Source: Pseudoxanthomonas indica
Lineage (GTDB): Bacteria > Pseudomonadota > Gammaproteobacteria > Xanthomonadales > Xanthomonadaceae
Direction: 5' to 3'
Length of the DNA stretch: 64,000 nt
Assembly: GCF_900167565.1 (NCBI RefSeq)
Contig: NZ_FUZV01000002.1
Span: 1,302,001-1,366,000, forward strand
Both the position numbers and the translations under genes were made by a program. The notes beneath the pieces were generated by a model. That model worked only from the letters and a program-made list of their open reading frames with translations. It was not told the origin of the DNA and did not search any database. The first letter of the stretch is position 1. Each line of letters opens with the position of its first letter. Positions 9,803-51,858 of this stretch are shown piece by piece.

Positions 9803-11089
9803 TCAGCGTAGCAGTTCGGAAGCATCCAGCAGGATCACCGTCTGCTGGCCCGCCAGGCGGGCCACGCCGCGGAACAGCGGATGGGTGATGCGGCACATGC
9901 GGGTGTTGTCGGGCGGCTCGATCTGGCCATCGGTCAAGGTGGTGACGTCTTCCACCGCGCTGACGCGCAGGCCGAGGATTTCGCCCTGTTCTTCCAGCAC
10001 CACGATGCGGGTGAGGGGGTCATCGATGATGGCGGCGCGATCCAGGTACAGCCCCAGATCGATCACCGGCACCACCTGTCCGCGCAAGTTCATCACCCCC
10101 AGCATGTGGCGGGCGGCGCCGCGCAGCGGCAGCAGGGTGGCCGGCAGCACGACTTCCTGAACCTTGAGCAGTTCCAGTGCGTAGTGCTGATCGTCGCAGC
10201 GCATGCGCAGCCAGCGGCTGGCGCGATCGCTGGCGCGGCGGCGGTCGTTGCCATGTGGTGATTGTGCGGCTTGATCCTGGGTCTGCCTTTGCAGCAGGTC
10301 GAACACCGGCTTGGCGTAGGCGGGCAGGTCGGCCGGGGGCGGCACCAGGTTGCGCGGCACGCGCGGCGCCGGCGGTGCATCGACGCGGATCGGCGCGGAC
10401 GGCATGCGCGACTGGATTTGGTCGGCTTCGGTTTCTTCGGCGACCGCGGCGGCAAAGTCGCCGGGGGCGGCGGCGTTCGCAGCAACCTCCGCGCCCGCCG
10501 GGAATTCGGCGTCGAACTCGGCCAGCAGGGCGGCGGTGGTGTCGGTGGTGTCGACGGTGGCCACGGCTTGATCGGGGAATTCGGAATCGAATTCGGCCAG
10601 CAGATCGGCGCTCACGTCGAAGGTCGGTACGGCTGCGGTGGCGTCGACGGCTTGATCGGGGAACTCGGAATCGAATTCGGCCAGCAGATCGGCGCTCACG
10701 TCGAAGGTCGGTACGGCTGCGGTGGCTTCGACGGCTTGATCGGGGAATTCGGAATCGAATTCGGCTAGGAGATCGGCGCTGGTGTCGAGGATCGGCGTGA
10801 CGGGCTCAATGGCTTCGGCGGTCGGGGCTGGCTCCCAACAGACTGATGTCTGGTCAACCCCTCCTACGGATGCAGCTTCTGCTTCTGCGGCCAGCAGGGC
10901 GATGTTGTCGACGTCACTGCCGTAGGGCTTGGGCACGTCGGCGACGGCGGGCACCTGGTCCACGTAGACGAAGGGCGGATCGCTGGCAGCGGACTGCGCT
11001 TCATCGCGCGGCGGGGTCGGGGGCGTGGATGCGCCATCGCCGGACAACAGGTCCAGCAGGTACGAATCCAGCGCGGGTACGGCATTCAT
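9803..11089 (-). CDS. parP: ParP-like chemotaxis array localisation protein (CheW-like domain with repetitive acidic N-terminus)
   Basis: 428 residues. The C-terminal 140 or so are a CheW-like domain (SRWLRMRCDDQHYALELLKV, HMLGVMNLRGQVVPVIDL). The N-terminal 290 are acidic, Ala/Pro-rich and contain four tandem copies of a 26-28 residue unit with core LLAEFDSEFP. It overlaps a ParA-like ATPase gene by 4 bp, the parC-parP arrangement known from Vibrio and Pseudomonas, where ParP joins the signalling array through its CheW-like domain and binds ParC to hold arrays at the pole. By that analogy this is ParP; a plain scaffold CheW variant is the alternative. The repeats are not part of the usual description. 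Confidence 0.85.
   Translation of the reverse strand: MNAVPALDSYLLDLLSGDGASTPPTPPRDEAQSAASDPPFVYVDQVPAVADVPKPYGSDVDNIALLAAEAEAASVGGVDQTSVCWEPAPTAEAIEPVTPILDTSADLLAEFDSEFPDQAVEATAAVPTFDVSADLLAEFDSEFPDQAVDATAAVPTFDVSADLLAEFDSEFPDQAVATVDTTDTTAALLAEFDAEFPAGAEVAANAAAPGDFAAAVAEETEADQIQSRMPSAPIRVDAPPAPRVPRNLVPPPADLPAYAKPVFDLLQRQTQDQAAQSPHGNDRRRASDRASRWLRMRCDDQHYALELLKVQEVVLPATLLPLRGAARHMLGVMNLRGQVVPVIDLGLYLDRAAIIDDPLTRIVVLEEQGEILGLRVSAVEDVTTLTDGQIEPPDNTRMCRITHPLFRGVARLAGQQTVILLDASELLR
10532..10777 (-). repeat. 84-bp in-frame tandem repeat within parP
   Basis: Two almost identical 84-bp units (10694-10777, 10610-10693) and a shorter third one (10532-10609) encode ADLLAEFDSEFPDQAV plus a linker. A fourth diverged copy (AALLAEFDAEFPAG) follows at lower coordinates. 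Near-identity at DNA level suggests recent duplication. Confidence 0.9.
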
Positions 11090-47043: not shown

Positions 47044-47130
47044 TGAAGGATCTCCTGTTCCCTTTTGCGGAAAAGGGCGTGGGGGCCGGCATGACATTCG
47101 CAGGCGAATGTCGTGCTGACCCGTGTAGTG

Positions 47131-47157
47131 GTAGCGGCCACGGCACGCCGATCTTTA
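47131..47157 (-). promoter_or_regulatory. FliA (sigma-28) promoter of fliD-fliS-fliT
   Basis: Minus-strand TAAA (47154-47157), 15 bases, GCCGCTAC (47131-47138); full -35 and six of eight -10 bases, 88 bp before the fliD ATG. Confidence 0.7.
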
Positions 47158-47473
47158 GGCCCGCATTTCTCCGTCTCCCACTGCCGGGGCTTGGGCCCTG
47201 GTCAGTGAGAAATGCGGGCTCGGGGGAGGGGATGCAGGGTTTGTGCCAAAGGGGGGCGTGGGCGGGTGACAGGGAATGTGGCCGCCCCCTGTAGGAGGGG
47301 CTGACCAGACATGCGTCTGTTAGGAGCCAGCCCCGAACCCCGTAGATCGCCCGAATCCGGTATCGCTTGCTGACCTGAATGTGGCTAACGAGGGCTTTTG
47401 GCTCTTCGGTTCGTTGGCGCTGGCGCGGTGGGTCTTGGGTGGGTTTGTTTTCGCGCGCTCCCCGCGGGGGGTC

Positions 47474-47501
47474 ACTTTTCTTTGCTTGTGCAAAGAAAAG
47501 T
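47474..47501. repeat. ACTTTTCTTTGC palindrome
   Basis: Perfect 12-bp arms around TTGT (47486-47489). The same kind of ACTTTTCTTTGC...GCAAAGAAAAGT hairpin is scattered through many proteobacterial genomes. Function unknown. Confidence 0.75.
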
Positions 47502-47583
47502 AACCAAAAGAAAGCACACCCCGGACGTCGCGCCCCCACGGTAAGGCAGTGGGGGTCCGTGGCGGCGGAGCTGATTTTTGGAC

Positions 47584-47629
47584 GGCACATCCTGTGCCGG
47601 CCAAAAACGCCGCACATCCATGTGCGGCG
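47584..47629. repeat. pair of perfect hairpins (GGCACA and CGCCGCACAT)
   Basis: GGCACA-TCC-TGTGCC (47584-47598) and CGCCGCACAT-CC-ATGTGCGGCG (47608-47629), both perfect, 9 bp apart. Confidence 0.75.
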
Positions 47630-47672
47630 CCCTGCGGGTCTACGCTCCGCCTCCACCGCTCCTAACGGGGCC

Positions 47673-47785
47673 CGAAAGCCGAAAAGCCGAAGCCAAGTCC
47701 GAAGCCAAAGCCAAAGCCGTAGCCGTAGCCGTAGCCAAAGCCGAAGCCGAAGCCAAGCGCAAGGGCAAGGCGCAAGGCGCAAGGC
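47673..47785. repeat. hexanucleotide-type array (AAAGCC / GAAGCC / GTAGCC)
   Basis: About 14 consecutive six-base units ending GCC, then AAGGCGC heptamers (about 47765-47785). It runs into the 42-bp array. Translation in frame gives Lys/Ala-rich low-complexity peptide, so open frames here are not evidence of a gene. Confidence 0.8.
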
Positions 47786-48121
47786 GCAAGGCGGAAAGGT
47801 CCGTGTGCAAGGTGAGCAGCTCCGTCCGCAATTCAAAAAGCGTTGCCGGTGGAGGAAGAAGGGGCGCTCGCAAGGTTGAAAGCCTTGCGTGCAAGGAAGA
47901 ATGCTCTGCACGCGGAGCTAAATGCTTTGCACGTGGAGTTCGGAGCACAGCGCGCGAAGCACATTGCATTGCCGGTGCTGCTCGGAGCTTTGCTCGCGAA
48001 GCAAATTGCTTCGCCTGTGCTGTTCGGAGCATCGTGCGCGAAGCAAAATGCTTCGCCAGTGCTGCTCGTAGCATCGTGCGCGAAGCAATTTACCTTGCGG
48101 TTCGTGCTCGGAGCCCCTGCG
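47786..48121. repeat. tandem array of eight 42-bp hairpin-bearing units
   Basis: Units start at 47786, 47828, 47870, 47912, 47954, 47996, 48038 and 48080, exactly 42 bp apart. The best units (47996, 48038) open with GCGAAGCA-AAW-TGCTTCGC, a perfect 8-bp hairpin, followed by a conserved half around GTGCTGYTCGGAGCATCGTGC that itself holds TGYTCGGAGCA. Older units (47870, 47912) keep pairing through changed bases on both arms or G-U pairs. Confidence 0.88.
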
Positions 48122-48229
48122 GTTGTTGGGGATGGGCTGTCGCCAGGCTCGCCGGGGGGTTTTCGCCTCGTGCGCCTCGTCGGATTACGTCGGGCCTCAA
48201 CGGCTCGCTGACCCTGTGCGTCATGAAAA

Positions 48230-48267
48230 CACCCCAGAGTCTGGACGGGTGTCCCAGGTCTGGGGTG
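48230..48267 (-). terminator. candidate terminator after symE-like gene
   Basis: Arms CACCCCAGA (48230-48238) and TCTGGGGTG (48259-48267) around 20 nt, with GTTTTC on the minus strand after the hairpin, 29 bp past the stop. Confidence 0.55.
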
Positions 48268-48295
48268 CACTTCACCGGGCCGGAGCCTGGTGCGC

Positions 48296-48553
48296 TTACG
48301 CGTGGGTGATGACCAGCCTCCCGTGGCCTACCGCCACCCGGACCCGCTGGCGGCGGTGGAATCCAGCCTGCTCCAGCCATTGGCCTTTGAGGCGGATATA
48401 GGGCACTGATACGTAAGGGCGGGCTTCCTCCCAGTTCTTGATCACGATAGTGCGCAGCGGGTCGTCGATGTCAGGCGGCTGATAGCCCGAAGTGCTGATG
48501 GTCAGGATGCGTTCTTGTTTGCTTGGACGTGTTTTAGGATTGGAGTTAGCCAT
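48296..48553 (-). CDS. SymE-like toxin family protein
   Basis: 85 residues from ATG 48553 (AAGG upstream). The C-terminal 40 residues (PYIRLKGQWLEQAGFHRRQ ... VAVGHGRLVI) match the SymE toxin domain, an AbrB-like fold turned into a nucleic-acid-condensing or RNA-degrading protein, normally repressed by antisense RNA SymR overlapping its 5' end. No antisense promoter was identified with confidence. It stands alone between the 42-bp array and a DUF202 gene. Confidence 0.8.
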   Translation of the reverse strand: MANSNPKTRPSKQERILTISTSGYQPPDIDDPLRTIVIKNWEEARPYVSVPYIRLKGQWLEQAGFHRRQRVRVAVGHGRLVITHA

Positions 48554-48775
48554 TGACGGTACCTTGGTTGCTGTTGGTGGTTAGCGGGTCGTAGGTGTTC
48601 TCGCACCTGCGGCCCGCGCTCTTTTGCCGTGGCGTTTCTTTGATGAATTGCCAGCTGGCAGGCCCACCGTAGCGGGTGGGACAGGCGAAGGAATATCAGG
48701 AAAGTGCCCGCCGTGAGCTGGCCGAAAATCCGGAGGCGCTGTAGGGAAATGCCTCGGCGTGTGCCGGCGCGGCGA

Positions 48776-49186
48776 TCAATGGGGAAGGAACAGCCAGAGG
48801 GCGGTTATGCCGCCCAGCACCAGCAATCCGATGCTGAATCCCAGCGTCGCCTTGTGGCCGGATTCGCTTACGCCGGCATCGATGTCTTTGGTGACCTTCC
48901 AGTAGCGGAACAGCGACCACACCAGCAGCGCCAGGCCGAGTATCACCATGCCCAGGCCTGCATTGCCGGCGTCGCGCAGCAACAGTTTTCCTTCCGGCGC
49001 CGCATTGTTCTGCACCAGGTACATGCTGAAGCGGTTGATGGTGATGCCAAAACCAATCAGCGACACCGTGGTGCGCAGGTAGGCCAGGTGGGTGCGTTCG
49101 TTGGCCATGTGGGTGCGGCCACGCGCAAGATCATTGGCCAGGTGCGGATTGTCCGCGGGCCGCTTTGGATCTTCGGGAGTGTTCAT
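48776..49186 (-). CDS. DUF202 (YidH-like) inner-membrane protein
   Basis: 136 residues from ATG 49186; the longer frame upstream lacks a ribosome site and runs toward the flagellin terminator. The family pattern MANERTHLAYLRTTVSLIGFG is followed by three TM helices (residues about 40-60, 72-95, 112-134). Function unknown. It lies alone between symE and the flagellins. Confidence 0.85.
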   Translation of the reverse strand: MNTPEDPKRPADNPHLANDLARGRTHMANERTHLAYLRTTVSLIGFGITINRFSMYLVQNNAAPEGKLLLRDAGNAGLGMVILGLALLVWSLFRYWKVTKDIDAGVSESGHKATLGFSIGLLVLGGITALWLFLPH

Positions 49187-49417: not shown

Positions 49418-50623
49418 CTAGCGGAGCAGGCTCAGCACGTTCTGCGGCACCTGGTTGGCCTGGGCCAACATCGCCGTACCGGCCTGCTGCAGGATCTGCG
49501 TGCGGGTCAGTTCGGCGGTTTCCTTGGCGAAATCGGTGTCGCGGATGCGGCTGCGCGAGGCGGCCAGGTTTTCCGAGCTGGTCTGCAGGTTGGCGACCAC
49601 CGAGGTGAAGCGGTTCTGCACCGCACCCAGGTCAGCGCGCGCGCTGTTGACGGCGGTCAGCGCCTTGTCGACGATTTCCAGCGCCTGCTGTGCGCCCTTG
49701 AACGTGGAGATGTCCAGGTTGGAGGCGTACTGCTTGGTGGTGGCCACCGTGCTGGCGGCGACGTCGGTCGGGGCGGTGCCGCCGGTCCAGGTGCCGGTTT
49801 CAATGGCTATACCCTTGAACGCGCCGTTGCTGCCCACGCTGTCCTTGACCGAGGTCAGGTTGATAGCGCCAGCGCTGCCCAGCTCGGCGAACACGCCGGT
49901 CTCGCCCATCTTGGCGTTGATCGCGGTGACCAGCGCGCCGGCAGCGGCGTCGCGGGTGGCCGCAGCCGTGCCCTGTGCGGCCACGTCGACGGTGTCGATG
50001 GTGACAGCGGCGCCGTCGGCGTTGGTCAGCTGCATGCCGGCGATCTTCAGCGCGGTCACGCCGTCGGCCGGAGTGGCGGTGGTGAAGGTGGCGGTGGCGA
50101 ACATCGCGCCGCCCAGTGCACCGGCCTTGGCGTCGACGACCTTGTCGATGGCGATGGCCTGGCCGGCATTGGCGCCGACCTGGAACAACTGGCTGGTGAA
50201 CGAGCCGTCGAGCAGCTTGGTGCCGTTGAAATCGGCCTGCTTGGCGACGCGGTCGATTTCCGAGGCCAGCTGCTTGACTTCGGCGTTCAGTGCAGCGCGA
50301 TCCGAAGACGAGTTTGTGGCGTTGGCCGACTGCACCGACAGCTCACGGATGCGCTGCAGGTTGTTGCCGATTTCGGTCAGCGAACCTTCGGCGACCTGGG
50401 CCAGCGAGATGCCGTCGTTGGCGTTGCGCACGGCAACGTCCAGGCCACGGATCTGGGTGCTGAAGCGTTCGGAAATCGCCAGACCGGCGGCGTCGTCCTT
50501 GGCGCTGTTGATGCGCAGGCCCGAGGACAGGCGCTGGATGGTGGTGGCCAGCGAGGCGCCGCTGGTGCCCAGATTGCGCTGGGCATTCAGCGAAATCGTA
50601 TTGGTGTTGATGACTTGTGCCAT
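49418..50623 (-). CDS. fliC: flagellin (third in transcription order)
   Basis: 401 residues. N-terminal D0/D1 (MAQVINTNTISLNAQRNLGT, SSGLRINSAKDDAAGLAISE) and C-terminal D1/D0 (RSRIRDTDFAKETAELTRTQ ... NQVPQNVLSLLR) are complete and almost identical to the two neighbours. The middle (about 175-310) is variable. Separated from the previous flagellin by a perfect 12-bp hairpin and no recognisable FliA site, so it may depend on read-through. Confidence 0.96.
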   Translation of the reverse strand: MAQVINTNTISLNAQRNLGTSGASLATTIQRLSSGLRINSAKDDAAGLAISERFSTQIRGLDVAVRNANDGISLAQVAEGSLTEIGNNLQRIRELSVQSANATNSSSDRAALNAEVKQLASEIDRVAKQADFNGTKLLDGSFTSQLFQVGANAGQAIAIDKVVDAKAGALGGAMFATATFTTATPADGVTALKIAGMQLTNADGAAVTIDTVDVAAQGTAAATRDAAAGALVTAINAKMGETGVFAELGSAGAINLTSVKDSVGSNGAFKGIAIETGTWTGGTAPTDVAASTVATTKQYASNLDISTFKGAQQALEIVDKALTAVNSARADLGAVQNRFTSVVANLQTSSENLAASRSRIRDTDFAKETAELTRTQILQQAGTAMLAQANQVPQNVLSLLR

Positions 50624-50665
50624 GAGATTTTCCTTAGGCGGTGTGAATAGCTAGGTGGGTGCCTG

Positions 50666-50698
50666 ATCGGGGCGGACGGGGAAAGTGTCCGCCCCGAT
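50666..50698 (-). terminator. inter-flagellin hairpin
   Basis: Perfect 12-bp arms ATCGGGGCGGAC (50666-50677) and GTCCGCCCCGAT (50687-50698), 9-nt loop, no T run on the minus strand. More like an attenuator or RNA-stability hairpin than a full terminator. Confidence 0.65.
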
Positions 50699-50709
50699 GC
50701 TCTGCGCGA

Positions 50710-51858
50710 TTAGCGCAGCAGGCTCAGCACGTTCTGCGGCACCTGGTTGGCCTGGGCCAGCATGGCCGTACCGGCCTGCTGCAGGATCTGGGTGCGGGTC
50801 AGTTCGGCGGTTTCCTTGGCGAAGTCGGTATCGCGGATGCGGCTACGCGACGCGGCCAGGTTTTCCGAGCTGGTCTGCAGGTTGGCAACCACCGAGGTGA
50901 AGCGGTTCTGCACGGCACCCAGGTCGGCGCGGGCGCTGTTGACCGAGGTCAGGGCAGCGTCGACGATTTCCAGGGCCTTCTGCGCGCCTTCGAACGTGGT
51001 GATGTCCAGGTCCTTGGCGAACGAAGCGGTCGCCGTGGCGGCCGCGGTGGTGGTGGCGGCGGTCAGGCCGGTGCCGGTGATGGTGCCACCGACGACCAGA
51101 TCCTTGCCGGCCTTGACCGAGTTCAGGGTGACCTGATCCGCGGTGACCGAGGCGTACACGCCGGACTCGCCCATCTTGGCGTTGATGGCCGTGGCCAGCG
51201 ACTTGGCGATGTCGGCACCGGTGGCGCCGTTCTTGTAGTCCACCTTGTCGATGGCGATGCTGTTGATGGTCAGGCCGCTGATGCTGCCGTCGGCAGCGGC
51301 AGTGGCGATGGCCGTACCGGTGACGTCGGCGGCGAACTTAACGTTGCCCAGCGAAGCCGAGCGCGCGTCAACGACCTTGTCGATGGCGATCGCCTGGCCG
51401 GCGTTGGCGCCGACCTGGAACAGCTGGCTGGTGAACGAGCCGTCGAGCAGCTTGGTGCCGTTGAAATCGGCCTGCTTGGCGACGCGATCGATTTCCGAGG
51501 TCAGCTGCTTGACTTCCGCATTCAACGCGGCGCGGTCAGACGACGAGTTGGTGGCGTTGGCCGACTGCACCGACAGCTCACGGATGCGCTGCAGGTTGTT
51601 GCCGATTTCGGTCAGCGAACCTTCGGCCACCTGCGCCAACGAAATGCCGTCGTTGGCGTTGCGGACCGCGACGTCGAGGCCGCGGATCTGCGTGCTGAAG
51701 CGCTCGGAGATGGCCAGACCGGCGGCGTCATCCTTGGCGCTGTTGATGCGCAGGCCGGACGACAGACGCTGGATCGTGGTGGCCAGCGATGCACCGCTGG
51801 TTCCCAGATTACGCTGGGCATTCAGCGAGATGGTGTTGGTGTTGATTACCTGTGCCAT
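50710..51858 (-). CDS. fliC: flagellin (second in transcription order)
   Basis: 382 residues. Shares the first 170 or so and last 90 or so residues with its neighbours almost unchanged; the central surface domain (about 175-285) is the shortest of the three. Starts 81 bp after the preceding flagellin; no FliA or RpoN motif was found in that gap, only a weak TCCCCG/CGGGGA hairpin (51911-51931). Confidence 0.96.
   Translation of the reverse strand: MAQVINTNTISLNAQRNLGTSGASLATTIQRLSSGLRINSAKDDAAGLAISERFSTQIRGLDVAVRNANDGISLAQVAEGSLTEIGNNLQRIRELSVQSANATNSSSDRAALNAEVKQLTSEIDRVAKQADFNGTKLLDGSFTSQLFQVGANAGQAIAIDKVVDARSASLGNVKFAADVTGTAIATAAADGSISGLTINSIAIDKVDYKNGATGADIAKSLATAINAKMGESGVYASVTADQVTLNSVKAGKDLVVGGTITGTGLTAATTTAAATATASFAKDLDITTFEGAQKALEIVDAALTSVNSARADLGAVQNRFTSVVANLQTSSENLAASRSRIRDTDFAKETAELTRTQILQQAGTAMLAQANQVPQNVLSLLR

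Follow-up and report, generated by a model that had tools for sequence, protein, structure and literature searches.

In a minisatellite, or VNTR, a short unit is repeated in tandem and the copy number changes by whole units. In iteron and centromere-type arrays, the repeated elements are protein sites placed at helical spacing. REP and BIME elements are described, in excerpts of PMC3733652 and PMC2817692, as GTAG- or CGTC-tagged repeats of high copy number, with RAYT genes that are flanked by the same repeat. The SymE protein of Escherichia coli is said in a part of PMC11894785 to bind DNA, to carry a MazE-like domain and to show no sequence specificity. A palindromic array beside a symE-like gene of Pseudoxanthomonas indica was analysed here in the light of these systems. 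The window, i.e. the whole stretch of DNA that was analysed, is 64,000 nucleotides long, and the features around the array are collected in Table 1. The array is tentatively read as a row of helically phased, symmetric docking sites for a putative DNA-binding protein, with a probability of about 0.4.

Table 1. Coordinates of the features around the array in the window.
Feature	Position	Strand	Evidence
Dispersed repeat	47600..47760		nearly all query matches come from here
Hexamer array AAGCCG, 12.7 copies, end of dispersed repeat	47684..47758		TRF, genome search
Heptamer array GCGCAAG, 5.4 copies, continues into the 21-bp array; 21 is 3 x 7	47757..47793		TRF
21-bp array, 15 near-palindromic units	47785..48099		TRF, lag identity, unit chain, centre listing
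Degenerate last stretch, within the span of the preliminary description, outside the chain	48100..48120		lag identity, unit listing
Terminator-like site between symE and array	48230..48247	-	terminator scan
symE-like gene, 85 aa, SymE_toxin domain; array on its 3' side	48296..48553	-	Pfam 48.1 bits, cut-off 29
symR-like antisense RNA over the symE start	48548..48620	+	Rfam RF01809 47.5 bits, gathering 61, E 2.2e-7
Terminator-like hairpin within the symR-like RNA region	48584-48617	+	terminator scan

A preliminary description of this locus had reported eight units of 42 bp in exact register beside a SymE-like gene. The array beside the gene is real, the SymE-like assignment was borne out by Pfam, and the exact register was confirmed by a unit-chain procedure; the 42-bp period also shows in TRF and in the identity at lag 42. 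The basic unit, however, is 21 bp, and the 42-bp period is a dimer formed by the alternation of AT-rich and TCGGA-type centres from position 47911 onward. Every step in the chain is 21 bp, a phase that is partly favoured by the procedure as it penalises all other steps. The AT-rich centres are TAAAT, ACATT, AAATT, AAAAT and AATTT, their alternating partners are TCGGA or TCGTA, and T occupies position 3 in 5 of the 15 window units. TRF reported a period-42 array at 47940-48114 with 4.2 copies and a score of 194, and an 84-bp version as well. The identity at lag 42 reached 0.86 (84-nt window) against maxima of 0.44-0.50 for eight neighbouring control lags over the whole 64 kb, and was only 0.38-0.60 before about position 47900. 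When lags 13-63 were scanned, the runner-up was 0.64 at lag 18, inside the hexamer array. Lag 21 alone gave 0.58, which is not above lag 57 elsewhere in the window. The support for the 21-bp unit therefore comes from the chain of units and from the related genomes.

The hexamer array that had been said to lead into the repeat is present, and a heptamer array which had not been named lies between the two. The main rival of the docking-site reading enters at this point. It is a functionless palindromic minisatellite, quite possible though below even odds, in which slippage and unequal exchange would add and remove units, copying in either orientation would keep the symmetry and copying of whole units would keep the phase; the emergence of the array from simple 6- and 7-mer arrays speaks for it. 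The dispersed repeat with its hexamer tail was matched in 29 of 41 genomes (the own genome included), often several times per genome, and sometimes occurs as facing pairs, as at C2:212593-212930 of the own genome. An 84-bp tandem repeat of 2.6 copies with 96% matches was also observed at 10563-10780 of the window.

The gap from the end of the symE gene to the array is 196 bp. The neighbourhood also contains fliD and, on the far side of a DUF202 gene, a pair of flagellin-like genes; the latter are adjacent on the minus strand (49418-51858), with near-identical ends and differing middles. Of nine loci obtained with FliD, eight bear the name Pseudoxanthomonas, at 73-76% identity, in line with the genus of this genome. 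No sigma-70-like promoter was found in 47050-48800, where 0.3 were expected. The genome holds three SymE homologues, namely the window gene and genes at C1:1566514 (73% identical) and C1:530628 (51% identical), and a 21-bp palindromic array lies on the 3' side of each. A covariance model R1, built from these three arrays, gave 17 own-genome matches and a wider model R2 gave 10, all within the same three symE loci; both models were built from arrays, so that matches in the source arrays arise by construction. No fourth locus in the genome reached the threshold with R1 or R2. A 21-bp signal at L045 (C2:218602) was rejected as no such array, since it sits in an open frame rich in heptads. By eye, a similar hairpin region precedes all three symE genes, and the one in the window resembles symR below the Rfam gathering score. 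The second symE copy with its array is convergent with a PemK/MazF-like toxin gene (80.7 bits; L043:7088-7486, minus strand, on C1 of the own genome), a curious neighbour given the MazE-like domain described for E. coli SymE.

The arrangement raises the reading of a SymE operator or sponge array, in which SymE would bind the units beside its own gene. It is very unlikely: three of three own symE genes are followed by an array and the E. coli protein is described as DNA-binding, but that description is without sequence specificity, the homologue search found no SymE in the eight further genus genomes that the array model matched, and 40 other SymE loci (30 from the family, 10 from the genus) gave no convincing match with R2, the best being 15.5 bits at E 0.44. 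The 30 family loci were the best-scoring ones and were mostly taken with about 1.5 kb on either side. A dependence of the arrays on SymE was thus dropped, as arrays occur where no SymE was found and the other SymE loci tested lack a convincing match. The array design is not tied to symE, and the tie is local to this genome. SymE as the binder is possible and unlikely, since arrays exist without it.

Related genomes were searched with the covariance models, as the preliminary description had proposed. R2 arrays were found in 9 of 38 genus genomes, at 1-4 loci each, and under a stricter filter in 32 of 297 family genomes from 11 of 54 genera, at 1-6 loci each, several of these on draft contigs. 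Matches were obtained in 4 of 200 genomes of an order sample and in 3 of 274 of a class sample, one of each from another family, and the arrays of both outside-family genomes were read and consist of 21-bp units of the same kind. These carrier counts are lower bounds with rough E-values, because the model needs three neighbouring units; G046 and G023, for example, carry arrays below the threshold of the genus search, and the status of G014 and of the G016 pepP site is doubtful. The remaining 29 of 38 genus genomes gave no match at threshold. No match was found in phages with a 701-bp query or in plasmids with a 336-bp query. In the literature searched, with most subscription journals outside its scope, no description of such an array was found.

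Several sites are common to different species. An array behind pepP is common to G044, G020, G049, G007, G047 and G046, with a weaker correspondence in G023, and none was seen behind pepP in G022, G013, G001 and G021. Arrays lie beside kdpD in G020, G044 and G016 (loci L133, L140 and L147; KdpC and KdpD were Pfam-confirmed in G016 only). An array adjoins ispH in G049, a closely similar one (6% different) is present in G044 and a possible counterpart in G007, and in another genus G285 and G274 have two sites in common. Most genus genomes gave no match and no array was seen at four pepP sites, so that any function would be dispensable. Changes by whole units were seen twice, as 42 nt missing in G046 compared with G007 and G047 and as a 42-nt difference between L207 and L208; both are differences between species, each species being represented by one genome, and they favour the minisatellite, as do the fast divergence and the patchy presence of the arrays. 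Gene orientation around the arrays (29 tandem, 6 convergent and 6 divergent; n = 41) was not used, as the gene calls are crude and pepP, for instance, is miscalled in L132. In G042 the arrays at L047, L056 and L060 end in nearly one palindrome, TGGACAAAATTTGTCCA or close to it, which is operator-like.

A REP/BIME-like element mobilised by a RAYT transposase was weighed against this distribution. The arrays are palindromic, mostly extragenic by crude gene calls and, in most carriers of the genus, present at several sites. In G044, G007, G042 and G046, RAYT genes that share at least 74% identity with the query and form one subfamily are separated from an array by about 0.7-7.6 kb, and the one in G016 lies 3.4 kb from a weak array match. 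The flanks of this one RAYT subfamily, however, carry a different inverted repeat at five of five loci read by eye, and the present genome, G047 and G006 have arrays but no such RAYT at E 1e-20. There is also no GTAG head on the units, and 1-6 loci per genome compare with more than 100 REP copies in the excerpted text of PMC2817692. RAYT mobilisation was set aside because the repeat flanking RAYT differs from the array units, and it is regarded as highly improbable. The RAYT subfamily loci themselves (L146, L138, L233, L234 and L235, in five genomes) carry their own flanking inverted repeats, and the G044 copy has an internal stop.

The anatomy of the unit was studied in 42 arrays (3 own, 19 genus and 20 family), which include orthologues and are not independent; L221 contributed two units only to the chain. 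They gave 584 units, and 507 of 542 steps were 21 bp, again partly favoured by the procedure, the rest being 22 (14), 23 (9), 42 (9) and 20 bp (3). The consensus is sGCsRRGCwnnnwGCYYsGCs, with C3 in 94% and G19 in 92% of the units. Among 151 distinct centres, two classes top the list and recur across genera, namely AT tracts (AAAAA 66, TTTTT 58, AAATA 32, TATTT 18, AAATT 16, AATTT 16) and TCCGA/TCGGA (43 and 37). All-AT centres were found in 215 of 584 units against 122 expected from independent positions, and 717 of 860 steps within them (83%) are AA/TT rather than AT/TA, a share that is 57% in the loci around the arrays. Half of the arrays, 21 of 42, contain both A-rich and T-rich centres, which speaks for the minisatellite; the recurrence of both centre classes in several genera counts against that rival.

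The rates of change revealed two conserved positions. Among the orthologous arrays behind pepP, the least change falls on positions 3 and 19 (0.05 and 0.10), and the centre is among the parts that change most (0.44-0.50). Two positions as low as these were obtained in 1 of 20000 permutations, and mirror positions resemble each other in rate, with a correlation of 0.89 (9 of 20000 permutations). In five of five further pairs, four of them same-site or probably so and one paralogous, C3/G19 change less than the remaining flanking positions do on average; the registers of these pairs were set with a profile in which C3/G19 is favoured for one sequence of the pair. The values for C3/G19 and for the other flanking positions were 0.12/0.12 and 0.27 in L133/L140 (position 14 is lower), 0/0 and 0.07 in L138/L141, 0.14/0.07 and 0.29 in L141/L146 (position 4 is lower), 0.00/0.07 and 0.51 in L131/L148, and 0.00/0.07 and 0.27 in the paralogues L131/L132. 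The mirror symmetry of the rates could come from strand-symmetric mutation alone. The size of the drop at C3/G19 is harder to explain in this way, context-dependent mutation remaining a possible cause, and the minisatellite leaves these conserved positions unexplained.

Orthologous sites have retained the phase although 14-46% of their positions differ, which is a further point against the minisatellite. Global alignment of 20 of 21 pairs (one with a p-distance above 0.45 was dropped) gave 40 gaps against 1840 substitutions in the arrays, and in a blastn comparison of 12 locus pairs the gaps per substitution came to 0.077 for arrays, 0.129 for other noncoding DNA and 0.023 for coding DNA. A depletion of indels was not taken as proof of selection, as the upstream control is slow and probably coding and the blastn difference is modest and depends on the aligner. 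A protein-coding repeat was not supported. The stop counts per frame differ among seven orthologues (stops are fewer than composition predicts), the heptamer array and the 20-, 22- and 23-bp steps break reading frames, and no 3-base rhythm of the change rates was seen by inspection.

The preliminary description had offered a structured RNA, a protein-binding array and a minisatellite as readings. The last two were retained, and the first lost most of its support. Under that reading the array would be transcribed into a row of hairpins, or would serve symE and other genes as a stabiliser or terminator in the 3' UTR. Self-pairing had been noticed in six first halves, and it holds with 8/8 Watson-Crick pairs at 47996 and 48038, 7/8 at 47870 and 5-6/8 at 47912, 47954 and 48080 (opposite strand read). 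Single-strand folding gave a z-score of -5.05 on the plus strand (0 of 100 shuffles as good) and -3.19 on the minus strand (1 of 100), which favours an RNA; these scores follow from the symmetry of the units and, taken alone, are no sign of selection. Rfam gave only weak matches over the array, far under the gathering scores (best E 0.49). The terminator-like site separates symE from the array, and RNA hairpins need no exact 21-nt step.

The arms of a unit had been thought to change together, which was mostly not borne out. Among six pepP-site orthologues, a sample of limited power, pairs changed on both sides numbered 8 against 9.2 +- 1.9 in shuffled data (403 of 500 at least as high), so that the proposed covariation check showed no excess there. 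Double changes at this site restore pairing at 0.47, compared with 0.27-0.67 between arms of different units, and the own-unit pairing is 0.651 against 0.515-0.631 across 13 unit shifts. In the three own arrays the own-arm pairing was 0.575 against 0.560 shuffled (281 of 1000). For the 584 units it was 0.625; reassigning the arms within each array gave 0.613 (sd 0.0047), with a highest value among 300 shuffles that likewise rounds to 0.625. When G-T pairs were counted too, the figures were 0.708 and 0.696, the former above all 300 shuffles. In the same units, compared within arrays, the partners 2-20 to 6-16 have no excess of shared information; coupling is seen at the inner pairs, 7-15 with a z of 6.7 and 8-14 with a z of 7.8. 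Mismatches of the G-T and the A-C kind have similar frequencies (340 and 308), which is a point against an RNA. In a mixed alignment of 30 three-unit rows, on the other hand, covarying cells were in excess (73 against 46.2 +- 7.4; 0 of 500 shuffles), which probably comes from consensus differences between genomes.

The slight own-arm excess, the coupled inner pairs and the mixed-alignment covariation are in favour of an RNA; the missing compensation among the orthologues and the uncoupled outer pairs oppose it. Due to the orthologue compensation and arm-coupling tests, the structured RNA is no longer the leading idea despite the weak pairing signals, and is now improbable. The palindrome thus belongs chiefly to the consensus, and only a small share of it is specific to single units. 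This share, perhaps a subtype of unit marked by ACC...GGT, would be older than the split between the species compared. Under the minisatellite, copying between arms could also give weak unit-specific pairing.

The spacing of two helix turns, the uncompensated outer half-sites, the conserved C3/G19 and the phased AT tracts together fit a row of docking sites for a dimer. The outer half-site positions vary without compensation as the half-sites of a dimer could, the symmetric consensus spans genera, and the arrays persist at orthologous sites. The own-arm pairing excess and the coupled inner pairs stand against this reading, as they are not needed by a docking site; the T at position 3 in five window units counts against it too. 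In the proposed mechanism, the two-fold symmetric sites in double-stranded DNA, 21 bp or two helix turns apart, would form a row on one face of the DNA, on which a dimeric DNA-binding protein would dock cooperatively. Bending at the phased centres of AT tracts would perhaps assist the docking, and near gene ends or between genes the array could act as a roadblock, insulator or nucleoid anchor. We infer the protein binding, the identity of the binder and the effect alike, and the binder is only putative.

A wider claim can be framed, which is doubtful as a whole. According to it, the Xanthomonadaceae and some other gammaproteobacteria would carry a previously undescribed, low-copy chromosomal element of 10-20 two-fold symmetric sites at two helix turns, with AT-tract and TCCGA centres and at fixed intergenic places across species; a dedicated architectural protein would bind it and form a one-sided filament that insulates, anchors or blocks transcription. 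If a binder exists, the arrays would serve as bait for a chromosome-organising or roadblock protein. If there is none, they show how long a functionless palindromic minisatellite keeps its phase. Orthologues without compensation, with independent outer arms and with half-sites and phase kept, provide a contrast for telling palindromes at the DNA level from those at the RNA level.

Compared with the known systems, the window array resembles a SymE/SymR type I toxin-antitoxin locus in having a SymE domain and a symR-like antisense RNA beside it, and departs from it in that the 40 other SymE loci tested have no convincing array match. With REP and BIME elements, as far as the excerpts describe them, the arrays have in common short palindromes that are often clustered, lie outside genes and form symmetric stems. 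They differ in standing head-to-tail at 21 bp, in occupying a handful of loci per genome, in the lack of a general tag (GTAG and CGTC are absent from the 584-unit consensus, and CGTC occurs at some unit boundaries of G020 and G044) and in that no transposase flanked by the array repeat was found. With iteron and centromere-type arrays they have in common helically spaced repeated sites that could bind a protein cooperatively; here, however, the sites lie at several unlinked chromosomal loci, the binder is putative, and no replication or partition gene is among the neighbours that were identified in the window. The tandem short unit and the whole-unit changes of copy number are those of a minisatellite or VNTR, and the array is a minisatellite by behaviour. 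It differs from that class in that its units follow a two-fold symmetric consensus and that several species or genera have the phase, the sites and the centre words in common; what is new is the symmetric, phase-locked design with recurring centres.
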